Of a stretch of DNA of 28,886 nucleotides, positions 2,966-25,836 are shown one piece after another. The stretch comes from a virus: positions 1 through 28,886 of the IMG/VR virus record IMGVR_UViG_3300010885_020099; one strand, given 5' to 3'. Positions within the stretch are counted from its first letter, which is position 1. Every line of letters starts with the position of its first letter. Below the pieces are notes generated by a model. The model had not been told where the DNA came from and searched no databases. It saw nothing but the letters and a program-made list of their open reading frames with translations. Made by a program: the position numbers and the translations under genes.

Positions 2966-3153
2966 CCACTTATGCCCGTTCAGCGTTTGCTATTGGGTAT
3001 GCCAAGCATACGGATGTGGTTACCGACGATGCAAAGGTTCTTTGCATGTCTGCCATCAACTATGCCATTGAAAACGCTGAAAGTGAATTTGTAATGTCTA
3101 TTGTTGAAGCAATGGGAGAAAAGGCCGGAGAACTATGCACTACGCAGGAATAA
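2929..3153 (+). CDS. Hypothetical protein (74 aa)
   Basis: This small, mostly helical protein is of unknown function. The ATG at 2929 lies inside the end of the basic-protein gene and has a convincing ribosome site just upstream (GAGGTGAAG, about 2918-2926). The sequence is rich in Ala, Ile, Val and Glu, for example YAKHTDVVTDDAKVLCMSAI and FVMSIVEAMGEKAGEL, and is probably soluble. Two Cys residues are far apart and form no metal motif. The gene overlaps the next microprotein ORF by 19 bases. It may be a minor head-assembly factor by position, but nothing in the sequence proves this. Confidence 0.65.
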   Translation: MATQGQQVHSQIATYARSAFAIGYAKHTDVVTDDAKVLCMSAINYAIENAESEFVMSIVEAMGEKAGELCTTQE

Positions 3154-3218
3154 GTTTTCTCTTAGGCATTGCCGCCTTGGTTTACATTGTTTTTATTTCT
3201 TTGGACAAAAATAGTTAA
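3135..3218 (+). CDS. 27-residue single-span membrane microprotein
   Basis: The encoded peptide is MHYAGISFLLGIAALVYIVF followed by ISLDKNS: one hydrophobic span of about 18 residues and a short polar tail. The ATG at 3135 has a GGAG ribosome site at 3127-3130 (CCGGAGAACT before ATG). The stop TAA at 3216-3218 directly abuts the ATG of the protease gene at 3219 with no spacer. Ribosome site, in-frame packing and clear membrane character together suggest a real gene. Function is unknown. It could be a small lysis or membrane-targeting peptide, or could serve mainly to couple translation into the protease gene, which has only a weak ribosome site. Confidence 0.55.
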   Translation: MHYAGISFLLGIAALVYIVFISLDKNS

Positions 3219-5693
3219 ATGTCTTCTGAAGGATTTTCCCCGCCTACGTCGGTACGCCACAACGCTGCCCGCTCATTGGAACTTCGTAGGAAACATCATC
3301 GTGGTATGACAATGGTTGGCGTGGCTCGTGCCCGTGACCTGTCAAACGGTAAAAACATCTCGGCGGACACTATTCGCCGGATGCACTCATATTTCGCACG
3401 TCACGAAGTGGATAAAAAGGGTAAAGACTGGGCTAACCAGTCTAACCCTTCTGCCGGATACATTGCTTGGCTTGGTTGGGGTGGAGACTCTGGCCGCTCT
3501 TGGGTGAACGGCATTATCCGCAAACTTGACTCTAAGAGTACTCAGGAAAGCGTTGTAACAATGTCTTCTAATTCAACTCGTGCCGCTGTAGTCCGAGGAA
3601 CCTTCCTTCGTCCCGGCCTTTCTAAGAACAATCGCCTCTACACCAAGGAAAATATTGGTAAGGCAGTTGCCCGGATGCAAAGCAAGATTTCTTCTGGCTC
3701 TGGTCTCCCCATCACAATGGCTACTAGCCACCGTGCCGCTTACGACGATGATGCAACCTCCACAGTTGGTCGCATTACTCACGTTTCTATGCTTCCTGAT
3801 GGCTCAGCCCAGTTTGAGGCTGATATTGCCAATACCGCCGCTGGTCGTGACGTTGCCAACCTTGCCGTTGGTAAGTTCATTAAGGGCATCTCCATTCGTG
3901 GGGAATGGGCTGGCGAAATGAAGACAGTAGACCACGAAGGCGCAGAGGCTATGACTGCTGATGACCTTGAAGTTTATGGTATTGACTTTACTCATCGCCC
4001 CGGCGTTGAGGGTGCTGAAATTGAATTGGCCCGACTCATGGAGTCCGCTGGTTCCAGCAACATGATTTTTGAGTCCGTAGATGACGCCGAAATTATGGAA
4101 GCCGAAGATTTGGCTACCATTTTACGTCACGACAAAGGACATGACGATTGGCACAAGGCCAATGGCGATAAGCCCTGCAAAGACGAGGCTGAATGCAGGG
4201 CAATGGCCGCAAAGTATCAGCAACGTAAAATGGATGCTCAAAACTTTAAGCCTCCCGTCAAGGCCGAGGACGTTCTTTCCGTAGAGTCTGACGCAACCTC
4301 AATGGATAAGGTTGCCGAGGCTCTTACCGCTATTAACCACGCCGTAGGCGAGGCTCTGGACACGTTAGAGGCCGACAAGGCTCCTTATGGTGCAGTTGCT
4401 TATGCTGACCCCGGCTACCAGTCCGACAAGAAGAAGCGATACCCGATTGACACTGAGAAGCACGTTCGTGCCGCTTGGTCATACATCAATCAGGCTGACA
4501 ACGCATCTCAGTACTCTCCAGCGCAGGTGCGCCGGATTAAGTCCAAGATTAAGTCTGCTGCTTCTAAGTTCGGCATCAACATCAAGGAGGAGCAGGAAAT
4601 GCTCGCCAAGGAAATTCAAGATGTTCTTGAGGCTTACGCTTCTACCACCATTGACAACGGTGCAGCAACTATCAGCATCGGTGGATACACCGACGACGCT
4701 GGTAAGTTGGCCGCTGTTGCTAACAGGCTCGCTACGGCAGCCGTGGTGGCACTAAACGCTGTTGACCCCGATGGAGATGGTGACATTTACCTCACCATGC
4801 CTGATGGGACCAGCGACAGTTCTGGCTCTGACTTCCACGACCCCGAGGGGGATGACGAGGAGGGTGAGGAGACAGACGACAACAACATGGAAAGCGAATG
4901 TCACGAATGTGGCGGAATGCTTCCTGAGGGCGCTGGCTTTTGTCCCGGCTGTGGTTGCATGACCCTGCCAACAAATGTAGCGATTCCTAGTTGCAATCAA
5001 TGTGGCGCCGAGACCCCAGAAAGCGCCATGTATTGCCCCACTTGCGGGCACCCAGTACCACAGGCTGAATCGGACGATTCTGCCCTAGACACGAAGGAGG
5101 CCCTAGTGGCTGACGACCAGACCCCCGTTGAGGCTTCAGCGGACGAGTCAGGGCAGGAAATTGTTGCTGCCCCGGCCCGCACGCTTACCGACGCGGACAT
5201 TTCGGCTCTTGCATCCGTTTTTGCGGCTGCATTGAAGCCAATCGAGAGTGCCCCTGAGGCAGAGGAGACCCCTGAGGTTGCTCCTGAGGAAGCCCCTGAG
5301 GCTCCCGCAGAAGAGACCCCCGAGGTTGCTCCCGAGGCTGAAGAAGCACATGAGACCACTCAGGAGACTGTTGTGACCGAGAACAATGTTACCTTTACCG
5401 CTGAGCAGGTTGCCCAGATGGTTTCAGAGGCTGCCACCAAGGCCGCTACTGAGGCTGTTGAAGCCGCCCGCACCGCTGCCGTTGAGTCCTACAGGACTGG
5501 CGAGGGATTCCGCAAGGGATACACCTCATCTTCCACTGGCTCTGACCTCAGTGACCTCAGTGAATCAGACGAACTCGACCCCCGCATGCTTGCGGAGATG
5601 AATAGTAGTGACTTCCGCAAGGTTCAGTCCGCTGTTTGGGGCGAGACCCCGTTTTTCAAGAACAAGTTCGCTCAGGCTGAGCGCGGCTTCTAA
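3219..5693 (+). CDS. Capsid maturation protease fused to zinc ribbons and scaffold-like C-terminus
   Basis: This 824-residue multidomain head-assembly protein begins with a phage module (about 28-104) with VGVARARDLSNGKNIS, YFARHEVDK and YIAWLGWGGD, often seen on phage capsid proteases. Residues 122-270 resemble herpes-fold prohead proteases: NNRLY, candidate catalytic His171 in ATSHRAA and candidate Ser225 in KGISIRGEW. Residues 389-453 form a Lys/Tyr-rich helical module (DUF6582-like) with YPIDTEKHVRAAWSYI. An acidic stretch (about 540-557) leads into two CxxC-x10-CxxC zinc ribbons (Cys561/564/575/578 and Cys592/595/606/609). Then comes a Glu/Pro/Ala-rich linker with EETPEVAPE twice (682-690, 698-706) and an Ala/Glu helical, scaffold-like end. 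Proteases of this class normally self-cleave and digest the scaffold inside the prohead. Two internal in-frame starts are possible and are listed separately. The protease call is firm; the domain borders are approximate. Confidence 0.82.
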   Translation: MSSEGFSPPTSVRHNAARSLELRRKHHRGMTMVGVARARDLSNGKNISADTIRRMHSYFARHEVDKKGKDWANQSNPSAGYIAWLGWGGDSGRSWVNGIIRKLDSKSTQESVVTMSSNSTRAAVVRGTFLRPGLSKNNRLYTKENIGKAVARMQSKISSGSGLPITMATSHRAAYDDDATSTVGRITHVSMLPDGSAQFEADIANTAAGRDVANLAVGKFIKGISIRGEWAGEMKTVDHEGAEAMTADDLEVYGIDFTHRPGVEGAEIELARLMESAGSSNMIFESVDDAEIMEAEDLATILRHDKGHDDWHKANGDKPCKDEAECRAMAAKYQQRKMDAQNFKPPVKAEDVLSVESDATSMDKVAEALTAINHAVGEALDTLEADKAPYGAVAYADPGYQSDKKKRYPIDTEKHVRAAWSYINQADNASQYSPAQVRRIKSKIKSAASKFGINIKEEQEMLAKEIQDVLEAYASTTIDNGAATISIGGYTDDAGKLAAVANRLATAAVVALNAVDPDGDGDIYLTMPDGTSDSSGSDFHDPEGDDEEGEETDDNNMESECHECGGMLPEGAGFCPGCGCMTLPTNVAIPSCNQCGAETPESAMYCPTCGHPVPQAESDDSALDTKEALVADDQTPVEASADESGQEIVAAPARTLTDADISALASVFAAALKPIESAPEAEETPEVAPEEAPEAPAEETPEVAPEAEEAHETTQETVVTENNVTFTAEQVAQMVSEAATKAATEAVEAARTAAVESYRTGEGFRKGYTSSSTGSDLSDLSESDELDPRMLAEMNSSDFRKVQSAVWGETPFFKNKFAQAERGF
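4584..4601 (+). promoter_or_regulatory. Possible internal translation start (M461) in the protease/scaffold gene
   Basis: A complete AAGGAGG Shine-Dalgarno sequence at 4584-4590 lies eight bases before an in-frame ATG at 4599. Initiation here would give a 364-residue protein lacking the protease domain but keeping the acidic stretch, zinc ribbons and scaffold-like end. The start falls at a domain border, just after the DUF6582-like module, which favours function. The Lys-Glu-Glu codons themselves spell AAGGAGGAG, so chance is a real alternative. Confidence 0.5.
5094..5108 (+). promoter_or_regulatory. Possible internal translation start (V630, GTG) for a scaffold-only product
   Basis: AAGGAGG at 5094-5100 is followed after five bases by an in-frame GTG at 5106. 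Initiation would give a 195-residue protein containing only the Glu/Pro/Ala linker and the helical C-terminus, a typical scaffold size and composition. It falls just after the second zinc ribbon. Nested protease/scaffold genes are known, for example lambda C and Nu3. Lys-Glu-Ala codons could create the motif by chance. Confidence 0.5.
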
Positions 5694-5727: not shown

Positions 5728-7293
5728 ATGGCTACTGACCTTGAAGAGGCTTTGGCTCTTACCGCGGCTGGCGCTGCGGCACTTGTCCAAAAGCACATTG
5801 ACCCTACGCTGCTTGAATACCAGCGCCGCTACGCACCGGTTGTGCGCGCCCTTCCTTCTGTGAAGTGGGGAAGCACGGTGTACTACTTCAACAAGCGCAC
5901 CACGCTTCCTTCTGGTGGTTTCGTAACTGACGGTGGCGCTCGCCCCATCAGCACGTCGAACTACAACCAAGAAAACTTCCAGATTCGCTTGCTCCAGAGT
6001 GTTGGCGCAGTGACTGGTTACTCACAGGCTGTTACGGCTGACCTTATCGGTGACCTCCGTGCCCGTGAAATTGAAGGCGCTGCTCGCGGCCTTTACTGGG
6101 ACCTTGAGGCTGCCCTTATGTGGGGTGCCGAGGCTCCTACGCAGCAAGGTGCTTACCCACAGTTCGACGGACTTGACGTTATCTGCTCGCAGTTCTCGTC
6201 AACCGCTTACAGCACTTCTTCCACCAACATCAACCCCGGTGTCGGCGGCGGAACCATTGACAACTACGGCGGCGGCTCTACTTGGGGCGCCCCCAACTTC
6301 AACCCTTGGCTTGATGGCAAGGACCAGAACGCTCTTGACTTCGGTGGCAATAACCTGTCGCTCGGTGGTCTTGACCTTCTGATTGACCTTGTTGAGTCGA
6401 ATGTTGCTGAGCCCGTTGAGAACTCCGAGTGGATGTTCCTCATGTCGCCTAACGCTAACTCACGCCTTTCCCAGTTGCTCGTTAACCAGCAGCGTTTCGT
6501 GGACAAGGTTGAGATTGCTCCCGGCCTCATCGTAGGTACCTACCGTGGTGTTCCAATTGTGAAGACTTCGTTCCTTGCTCCTCGCACCAACAAGATGGTT
6601 CTTACCTCAGCAACTGGTTCACAGGCCGGTGGCGCCCTTTCATCTGGTACTTTCAAGTACAAGGTTTCGGCTGTTATTGCTCGTTACGGTGAAATTCAGG
6701 CTTCGATTGAATCCACTGCTACCGTTGGTGGTTCAGTTACTGCTGGCTCGGTTGCTCTCGTCATCGTTCCCCCCACGGGTCCCGATGGTGGTTCGGCTAC
6801 GCACTACAAGGTATACCGCACCGCCCTTAATGGTCTCACCAACACTGAGACTCTTATCGGCATGGTTGACGCTACCTACCTTGACAGCGCTGGCACTGTT
6901 CGTACCACGTCAATCATTACTGACACTGGTGGCGCCCTTGTGCCTAACGATGGAACTAACGCCATCGCCTCGGCCCCAAGCACCTACTACTACGGAAATG
7001 CCAACCTGAAGCCTTTGGGCGCCAGTGGCGAATCCAACATCTACCTCATGTCGCGTGACCCGAACTACATCGTTCGTCCTTACGTCCGTGAGATGCAGCC
7101 TGTTAACGTTTACCCGACCACTTCATCGCCTGACAGCCTCCCGTTTGCATTCGTTGCAGACACCACGCTGGCTGTTCGCGGTGCCAAGTACATTGGTCGC
7201 CTTGCAAACGTCGCTACTGCGCTGGACTCAACTGCTGGTAATGGGATTCTCCCAACCAACAGCAGTTACACTCCTAACTTCATTGTTGACTAA
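5728..7293 (+). CDS. Major capsid protein
   Basis: This 521-residue protein follows the protease/scaffold gene and has a strong ribosome site (AAGGAG, about 5714-5719). The N-terminal half looks like an HK97-fold capsid subunit: a helical N-terminal arm, then a stretch with STVYYFNKRTTLPSGGFVTD, a long helix with DLRAREIEGAARGLYWDLEAA, and WMFLMSPNANSRLSQLLV. Residues from about 288 to 415 look different: a Gly/Thr/Ser-rich beta segment with FKYKVSAVIARYGEIQAS and ATHYKVYRTA, like an Ig or FN3 fold, inserted before the C-terminal capsid region (NIYLMSRDPNYIVRPYVREM, about 435-454). Codon choice is strongly C-ending (AAC, GAC, TTC, CGC), as expected for the most abundant virion protein. The capsid call is secure by position and sequence; the insertion fold is inferred. 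Confidence 0.88.
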   Translation: MATDLEEALALTAAGAAALVQKHIDPTLLEYQRRYAPVVRALPSVKWGSTVYYFNKRTTLPSGGFVTDGGARPISTSNYNQENFQIRLLQSVGAVTGYSQAVTADLIGDLRAREIEGAARGLYWDLEAALMWGAEAPTQQGAYPQFDGLDVICSQFSSTAYSTSSTNINPGVGGGTIDNYGGGSTWGAPNFNPWLDGKDQNALDFGGNNLSLGGLDLLIDLVESNVAEPVENSEWMFLMSPNANSRLSQLLVNQQRFVDKVEIAPGLIVGTYRGVPIVKTSFLAPRTNKMVLTSATGSQAGGALSSGTFKYKVSAVIARYGEIQASIESTATVGGSVTAGSVALVIVPPTGPDGGSATHYKVYRTALNGLTNTETLIGMVDATYLDSAGTVRTTSIITDTGGALVPNDGTNAIASAPSTYYYGNANLKPLGASGESNIYLMSRDPNYIVRPYVREMQPVNVYPTTSSPDSLPFAFVADTTLAVRGAKYIGRLANVATALDSTAGNGILPTNSSYTPNFIVD

Positions 7294-25042: not shown

Positions 25043-25836
25043 TGTCTGACGCTCGCCAAAACATTGTTGACTGGGCCAAGTGGGGCGTTGAGAACCACGC
25101 TCAGTTTAATTATACTGAGGGCTCAACTCGCATGGAGGGTGTCCACAAGCCCGGAGTCCTTCCGGCTGACGCTGACTGCTCTGCCTTTGTAACCTATTGC
25201 TATTCTTGGGCTGGCGCTGCTGACCCCAATGGCCAAGGTTTTAATGGCACAGGTTACACCGGAACCCTTTTAGCCCACGGTACCCACATTCCTCTTGAGC
25301 AGGTTGTACCCGGCGATGTAATCGTTTATGGGGCTGGAACAGGCGACCACACTGCTCTAGTCGTAGAAGCCGGTACAGACCCACTGACGGTCTCTCATGG
25401 GCAACAGGGAGACCCCTCCTACTGCCGAGTCTCACAAGATGGCAGACAGCCCCAGACTTACCTTCGATTTGATACCACAAACATTAATAATGGCACAAGC
25501 CCGTACCATATCAACCCCGTTACCCCGCCCGAGGAGGCAAACATGGCTATTTCTCAAGTCATTACCGATTTCAAGCCCGGTCTTCAGCACGTTTTCCAGA
25601 TTGCTGGTGGCGTTTTGTACCACAAGTGGCGCAATACTGCTGGCAAGTGGAGCAACGAAGTCATTGCTGGCCCTCAGGGTGGAACCTCAAAGATTACCGC
25701 CAAGTTTGTTGGCGAACCCAAGACAGCCGTTGCCGGAAACCAGTTGGTCATTACCGCTGAGACCGACAATGGCGCTGCCTTTTACTTTGCCCAAGGTGTC
25801 TCTGGCACTTCATGGGGAGTAGTTCAACTACCCTAA
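25042..25836 (+). CDS. Endolysin, NlpC/P60-like cysteine hydrolase with C-terminal binding domain
   Basis: The 264-residue lysin has candidate catalytic Cys46 in ADADCSAFVTYCY and His103 in GTGDHTALVVEAG, with His119 in VSHGQQ as a possible third residue. This is the NlpC/P60 or CHAP-like order for cutting peptidoglycan peptides. A linker (about 150-167, PYHINPVTPPEEAN) leads to a C-terminal domain (168-264) with LQHVFQIAGGVLYHKWRNTA and a repeat-like SKITAKFVGEPKTAVAGNQL, probably wall binding. I chose ATG 25042 (TAATG overlap) rather than the in-frame ATG 25027, which adds five residues within the fibre gene. An internal start before the binding domain is listed separately. Confidence 0.75.
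   Translation: MSDARQNIVDWAKWGVENHAQFNYTEGSTRMEGVHKPGVLPADADCSAFVTYCYSWAGAADPNGQGFNGTGYTGTLLAHGTHIPLEQVVPGDVIVYGAGTGDHTALVVEAGTDPLTVSHGQQGDPSYCRVSQDGRQPQTYLRFDTTNINNGTSPYHINPVTPPEEANMAISQVITDFKPGLQHVFQIAGGVLYHKWRNTAGKWSNEVIAGPQGGTSKITAKFVGEPKTAVAGNQLVITAETDNGAAFYFAQGVSGTSWGVVQLP
25531..25545 (+). promoter_or_regulatory. Possible internal start (M168) for a free lysin binding domain
   Basis: GAGGAGG at 25531-25537 is followed after five bases (CAAAC) by an in-frame ATG at 25543. Initiation would give a 97-residue protein consisting exactly of the C-terminal binding domain. Some endolysins of Gram-positive phages are known to make such in-frame binding-domain subunits that assemble with the full enzyme. 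The placement at the linker end supports function; chance from Glu-Glu codons is possible. Confidence 0.55.

Follow-up and report, generated by a model that had tools for sequence, protein, structure and literature searches.

The protease of phage lambda is ClpP/SppA-like (a class also given in PMC8508860). The lambda C and Nu3 genes overlap, the scaffold being made from an in-frame internal start in the protease gene (as cited in PMC8508860). Phage Mu I/Z also carries an in-frame scaffold start within the protease gene, and in gene 27 of the Mu-like phage PaMx73 the proposed scaffold start is the Val codon V177, which follows an SD (PMC4378225). Herpesvirus UL26/UL26.5 and cytomegalovirus UL80 give 3'-coterminal, in-frame scaffold products nested in the protease gene (PMC4498786); four nested proteins are attributed to UL80 (PMC4498786, as cited there from its reference 7). 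The phage T4 core contains approximately 55 protease and approximately 580 scaffold copies (PMC9958956).

The window, 28,886 bases long, spans an entire virus record. A head gene at 3219-5693 was preceded by the portal gene (707-2347) and followed by the gene for the major capsid protein (5728-7293). Its 824-aa protein comprised, in order, an N-terminal helical domain, a gp21-like protease, DUF6582, two zinc ribbons, an acidic linker and a putative scaffold:

3219-5693, + strand: 824-aa open reading frame, putative protease/scaffold head gene.
3219-3548, + strand: N-terminal helical domain, phrog_2859-like, found joined in other phages to two distinct families of protease, and absent from some relatives.
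3561-4070, + strand: T4 gp21-like prohead protease domain, residues 115-284 (phrog_207, Peptidase_S77/S78, Foldseek to 5jbl).
4383-4592, + strand: DUF6582 domain, residues 389-458 (Pfam PF20223, E 4.8e-21).
4899-5045, + strand: two zinc-ribbon motifs with CxxC pairs, residues ~561-609 (Pfam Zn_Ribbon_1 and DZR; sequence).

The protease domain is T4 gp21-like. Comparison with T4 gp21 (5jbl_B) in Foldseek gave E 8e-4, probability 1.00 and TM 0.55-0.62, and His171 and Ser225, candidates for the catalytic His and Ser of a gp21-like protease, were invariant within the domain. Peptidase_S77 was matched in 8 of 18 members (best 9.6e-7); the Pfam match of the window member was to S78 alone (0.041, below the cut-off). 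A ClpP/SppA-like protease of the lambda gpC family was considered and rejected, since T4 gp21 was the sole structural match with E below 0.001 and the Pfam hints were to S77/S78. The C-terminal part would serve as a scaffold, to judge from its position before the capsid gene, its composition and its helices; the family libraries returned no convincing name for it. Its low-confidence model (pLDDT 59) opened with a short helix and a disordered acidic linker; a long helix came next, with V719 placed just ahead of it, and then a conserved helical end.

Protease (residues 115-284) and scaffold-like C-terminus share a reading frame that lies immediately ahead of the major capsid gene at 5728. As in lambda C/Nu3, a single protease and scaffold gene precedes the capsid gene and has a putative internal in-frame scaffold start; unlike lambda, the protease is gp21-like, and two conserved scaffold starts, M115, DUF6582 and the zinc ribbons are added. 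Mu and PaMx73 are alike in having the scaffold start in frame inside the protease gene, at a Val codon in PaMx73, but one internal start is described there, with no second scaffold or N-terminal-domain start. The protease fold is shared with T4 gp21, and the T4 copy ratio is of the kind that nested starts could yield, whereas protease and main scaffold (gp21 and gp22) are separate proteins in T4 and fused here. Herpesvirus UL26/UL26.5 and UL80, compared at the level of design (PMC4498786), share the nested protease-scaffold arrangement; their nested products come from separate transcripts, whereas internal ribosome-binding sites are predicted here. It is proposed that the gene operates in the manner of lambda C/Nu3 and Mu I/Z but with additional tiers. 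It departs from the known nested genes in its protease class, its extra domains, its pair of conserved scaffold starts and a further start at a domain border. The literature, coverage of which was incomplete, with most subscription papers outside it, yielded no phage gene in which two nested starts for the scaffold are conserved.

The start of the gene itself, M1, had a weak SD (energy -3.0 in the window). Mean SD pairing was weakest at this codon (-2.0 in 19 relatives, against -7.4 at M115 and -9.1 and -7.9 at the two other conserved starts). A small hydrophobic frame of 27 codons lies at 3136-3218, and its TAA abuts the ATG of the 824-aa gene. The resulting TAAATG junction suggests translational coupling and low-level initiation.

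The preliminary description had placed two possible internal starts in this gene, M461 and V630, each behind a full AAGGAGG and each at a domain border, which may give protease, zinc-ribbon and scaffold products. The motifs and their positions were confirmed: AAGGAGG was present at 4584-4590, 8 nt ahead of the in-frame ATG 4599 (M461), and at 5094-5100, 5 nt ahead of the in-frame GTG 5106 (V630). M461 lies just past DUF6582 (389-458) and V630 past the zinc ribbons (~561-609). When the 261 in-frame internal ATG/GTG codons of the window genes were ranked by predicted anti-SD pairing, V630 came second, M461 third and V719, in the same gene, fourth. Pairing energies were -11.7 kcal/mol at V630 and -11.4 at M461, with a median of -6.6 at assigned gene starts, all scored against the canonical 16S 3' end, from which the anti-SD of the host may differ. 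AAGGAGG was not enriched in the window (4 copies, 3.3 expected from shuffles). Conservation was tested because this count alone was at chance, and relatives were examined because SD strength alone cannot tell a signal from Lys-Glu codons.

A scan of viral contigs gave approximately 48 loci with the gene. These and the window were reduced to 20 representative sequences of less than 95% identity to each other; nucleotide identity to the window was 61-66% for 18 of this set and 77% for L002. A second scan, with a C-terminal profile, enlarged the set to 42 distinct C-terminal sequences. The relatives behind all conservation counts below are not independent of each other. In a scan of genome contigs one weak match was obtained, to the DUF6582 region, and among the listed phage records the match was confined to the N-terminal domain.

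4584-4601, + strand: AAGGAGG-N8-ATG (M461), not conserved (start codon in 4/20; SD and ATG together confined to the window clade).

The start codon at M461 was missing in 16 of the 20 distinct sequences. Met was retained in four, two of these without a good SD: SD and ATG were present in the window and L002, L006 had ATG without an SD (-0.4) and L026 had a weak SD (-3.3). This is near to the loss of SD sequences in relatives that the preliminary description had itself named as refuting its proposal. Synonymous variation around M461 was ordinary. A conserved start at this position was rejected on the ATG column (4/20), and a zinc-ribbon product is therefore unsupported as a family feature. M461 may nevertheless initiate as a lineage-specific start in the window lineage, since SD and ATG are kept in L002 at 77% identity. 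This retention in L002 and the strong predicted pairing (-11.4) are also what speaks for the model exactly as first described, in which a product with both zinc ribbons and scaffold begins at M461 and one with the scaffold at V630; set against the 16 sequences that have no start codon and the ordinary variation nearby, that model is unlikely.

3561-3563, + strand: M115, an internal ATG with which the protease domain begins, conserved in the relatives (ATG 20/20, mean SD -7.4).

M115, absent like V719 from the set of starts first described, was the third invariant start codon ranked high in an alignment-wide SD scan. In 18 of the 20 representatives it was preceded by GGAG at a distance of 6-12 nt. 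The SD in the window was weak (CAGGAA at 3543-3548, -4.3); most relatives had CAGGAG. In five relatives without the N-terminal domain (L112, L116, L129, L136 and L142), which L099 resembles, the gene begins at the M115 Met with AGGAG upstream. In L149 the gene begins at the protease and the helical domain comes after it. The N-terminal domain was thus gained or lost while the M115 ribosome-binding site was retained. M115 would probably give a protease/scaffold form without the N-terminal domain. Separately, in L050-L080 the N-terminal helical domain is joined to a different protease family. The junction there had AAG-GA(T/A/G) shortly upstream of an ATG in 18 of 18 examined, and an alignment scan of this second family returned one more candidate start, with an SD in some members.

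On another reading the internal SD/start pairs are disused relics of gene fusion, or chance products of purine-rich Lys-Glu codons. In its favour, relatives that lack the N-terminal domain begin the gene at M115, the SD of M115 is poor in the window, and the AAGGAGG count is at chance; M461 is well suited by such an origin. Disused sites would, however, drift synonymously, and V630 and V719 have stayed constant despite 61-66% nucleotide identity to most relatives, which makes the relic or chance reading highly improbable.

5094-5108, + strand: AAGGAGG-N5-GTG (V630), conserved putative internal start for a 195-aa scaffold form (GTG 35, ATG 5; GGAG in 20/20).
5106-5690, + strand: proposed long scaffold product, 195 aa (alignment; low-confidence model with helices and a disordered acidic linker).
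5361-5375, + strand: CAGGAG-N6-GTG (V719), conserved putative internal start (GTG 20/20, GGAG exactly 6 nt upstream; ATG in L149).
5373-5690, + strand: proposed minimal scaffold product, 106 aa, with the long helix and conserved C-terminal helices.

Every distinct sequence covering V630 had GTG (35) or ATG (5) there. GGAG lay upstream in all 20 representatives, 6 nt away in 13 and 9 nt away in 7; start codon and GAG were constant while the spacer codons and spacer length varied. At V719 the pattern (C/A)AG GAG NNN NNN GTG was found in 20 of 20, and the most distant relative, the 35%-identical outlier L149, had CAG GAG AGT GAC ATG. The V719 Val was GTG in 20/20, against approximately 9.5% of Val codons overall, and Glu716 was GAG in 20/20, against 40% overall. 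The L149 scaffold, used as a search query, matched L149 itself only. In L026, L030 and L045 an extra domain of approximately 60 residues (FDVYPSAVANAW...) lies between the zinc ribbons and V630, and a stretch similar to it is placed elsewhere in L149 and L077.

Other Val codons served as controls. The 21 other well-conserved Val columns of the gene had at most 3 GTG apiece. Across ten head genes (approximately 98 conserved Val columns), all-GTG columns occurred only at 630 and 719, and the next-highest GTG fraction, 0.60, belonged to a column of the capsid gene. Only 2 of 188 conserved fourfold columns, again 630 and 719, were free of third-position change on the tree; taken by itself, a column without change is not especially rare under parsimony, the mean being 5.6 changes per column. 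In the alignment-wide scan, mean SD pairing among start-codon columns was strongest at these two. Mean SD energies were -4.4 or weaker at the further in-frame ATGs that are invariant or nearly so, namely M557 (before the zinc ribbons), M604, M153, M167, M734 and M794. The weight of evidence lies in the combination: both sites are the rare GTG, both stand behind a conserved SD, and Val is swapped only for ATG. The stretches of lowest synonymous variation included residues 617-632, 106-114, 714-724 and 651-662. At 651-662 (window 5169-5204) no start codon or SD was noted.

Similar peptides occur at M115, V630 and V719, with a border motif (S/T)(Q/K)E(N/T)xx(M/V)(S/T) that could be a cleavage site for the protease itself, the short forms then arising by proteolysis. 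Cleavage of the scaffold and self-cleavage are known for prohead proteases (T4 gp21, PMC9958956). Selection on protein leaves unexplained the use of GAG over GAA, of CAG over CAA and of GTG over three other Val codons, as well as the replacement of Val by ATG-encoded Met alone, so proteolysis as the sole source of the short forms is very unlikely. Internal initiation and proteolysis could coexist.

SDs and start codons are conserved at the level of codons, and nested in-frame starts are well supported, in a set differing from that first proposed: V630 stood as a conserved start with SD, and M461, needed for a separate zinc-ribbon product, did not. Conservation backs two putative scaffold forms, one beginning at V630 and the other at V719; a protease form without the N-terminal domain, beginning at M115, is backed less firmly in the window. 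On this basis, a gp21-like protease/scaffold fusion with a weak start of its own and conserved internal SD starts at domain borders, producing nested products, is judged highly probable. Ribosome use of these starts, product ratios and a role in assembly are what we infer. A scaffold of 195 aa would arise from V630 and a scaffold core of 106 aa from V719; scaffold copies would be abundant owing to the strong internal starts, and copies that bear the protease scarce owing to the weak M1. The long form would co-assemble with the scaffold, because the C-terminus is common to both, and would take the protease along into the prohead.

Tentatively, with slightly less than even confidence, the gene is suggested to be the phage equivalent of the nested UL80 family of cytomegalovirus. 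The gene would then encode four in-frame, 3'-coterminal products (full length, M115 protease form, V630 long scaffold and V719 minimal scaffold). Ribosome-binding sites of graded strength would set their ratios, the two scaffold isoforms would have separate roles, and the gene would have grown by domain insertion that kept the old sites. The codon-level evidence for several nested products, including two scaffold isoforms, goes beyond any single-genome SD call. If true, the arrangement would be a simple means to fix the protease-to-scaffold ratio and to deliver the protease into the prohead, and would parallel the herpesvirus nested scaffold genes. A test for GTG-only Val columns that switch to ATG could reveal hidden internal starts in other phage genes.

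Elsewhere in the window, an endolysin-like gene (NlpC/P60; 25027-25836) carried an in-frame ATG at 25543 behind a strong SD, GAGGAGG, on the boundary with a variable C-terminal domain. Relatives other than L152 were without this start signal and had different C-terminal domains; AAGGAG and ATG were kept in L152. ATG 25543 is possibly an internal start for a free wall-binding domain.
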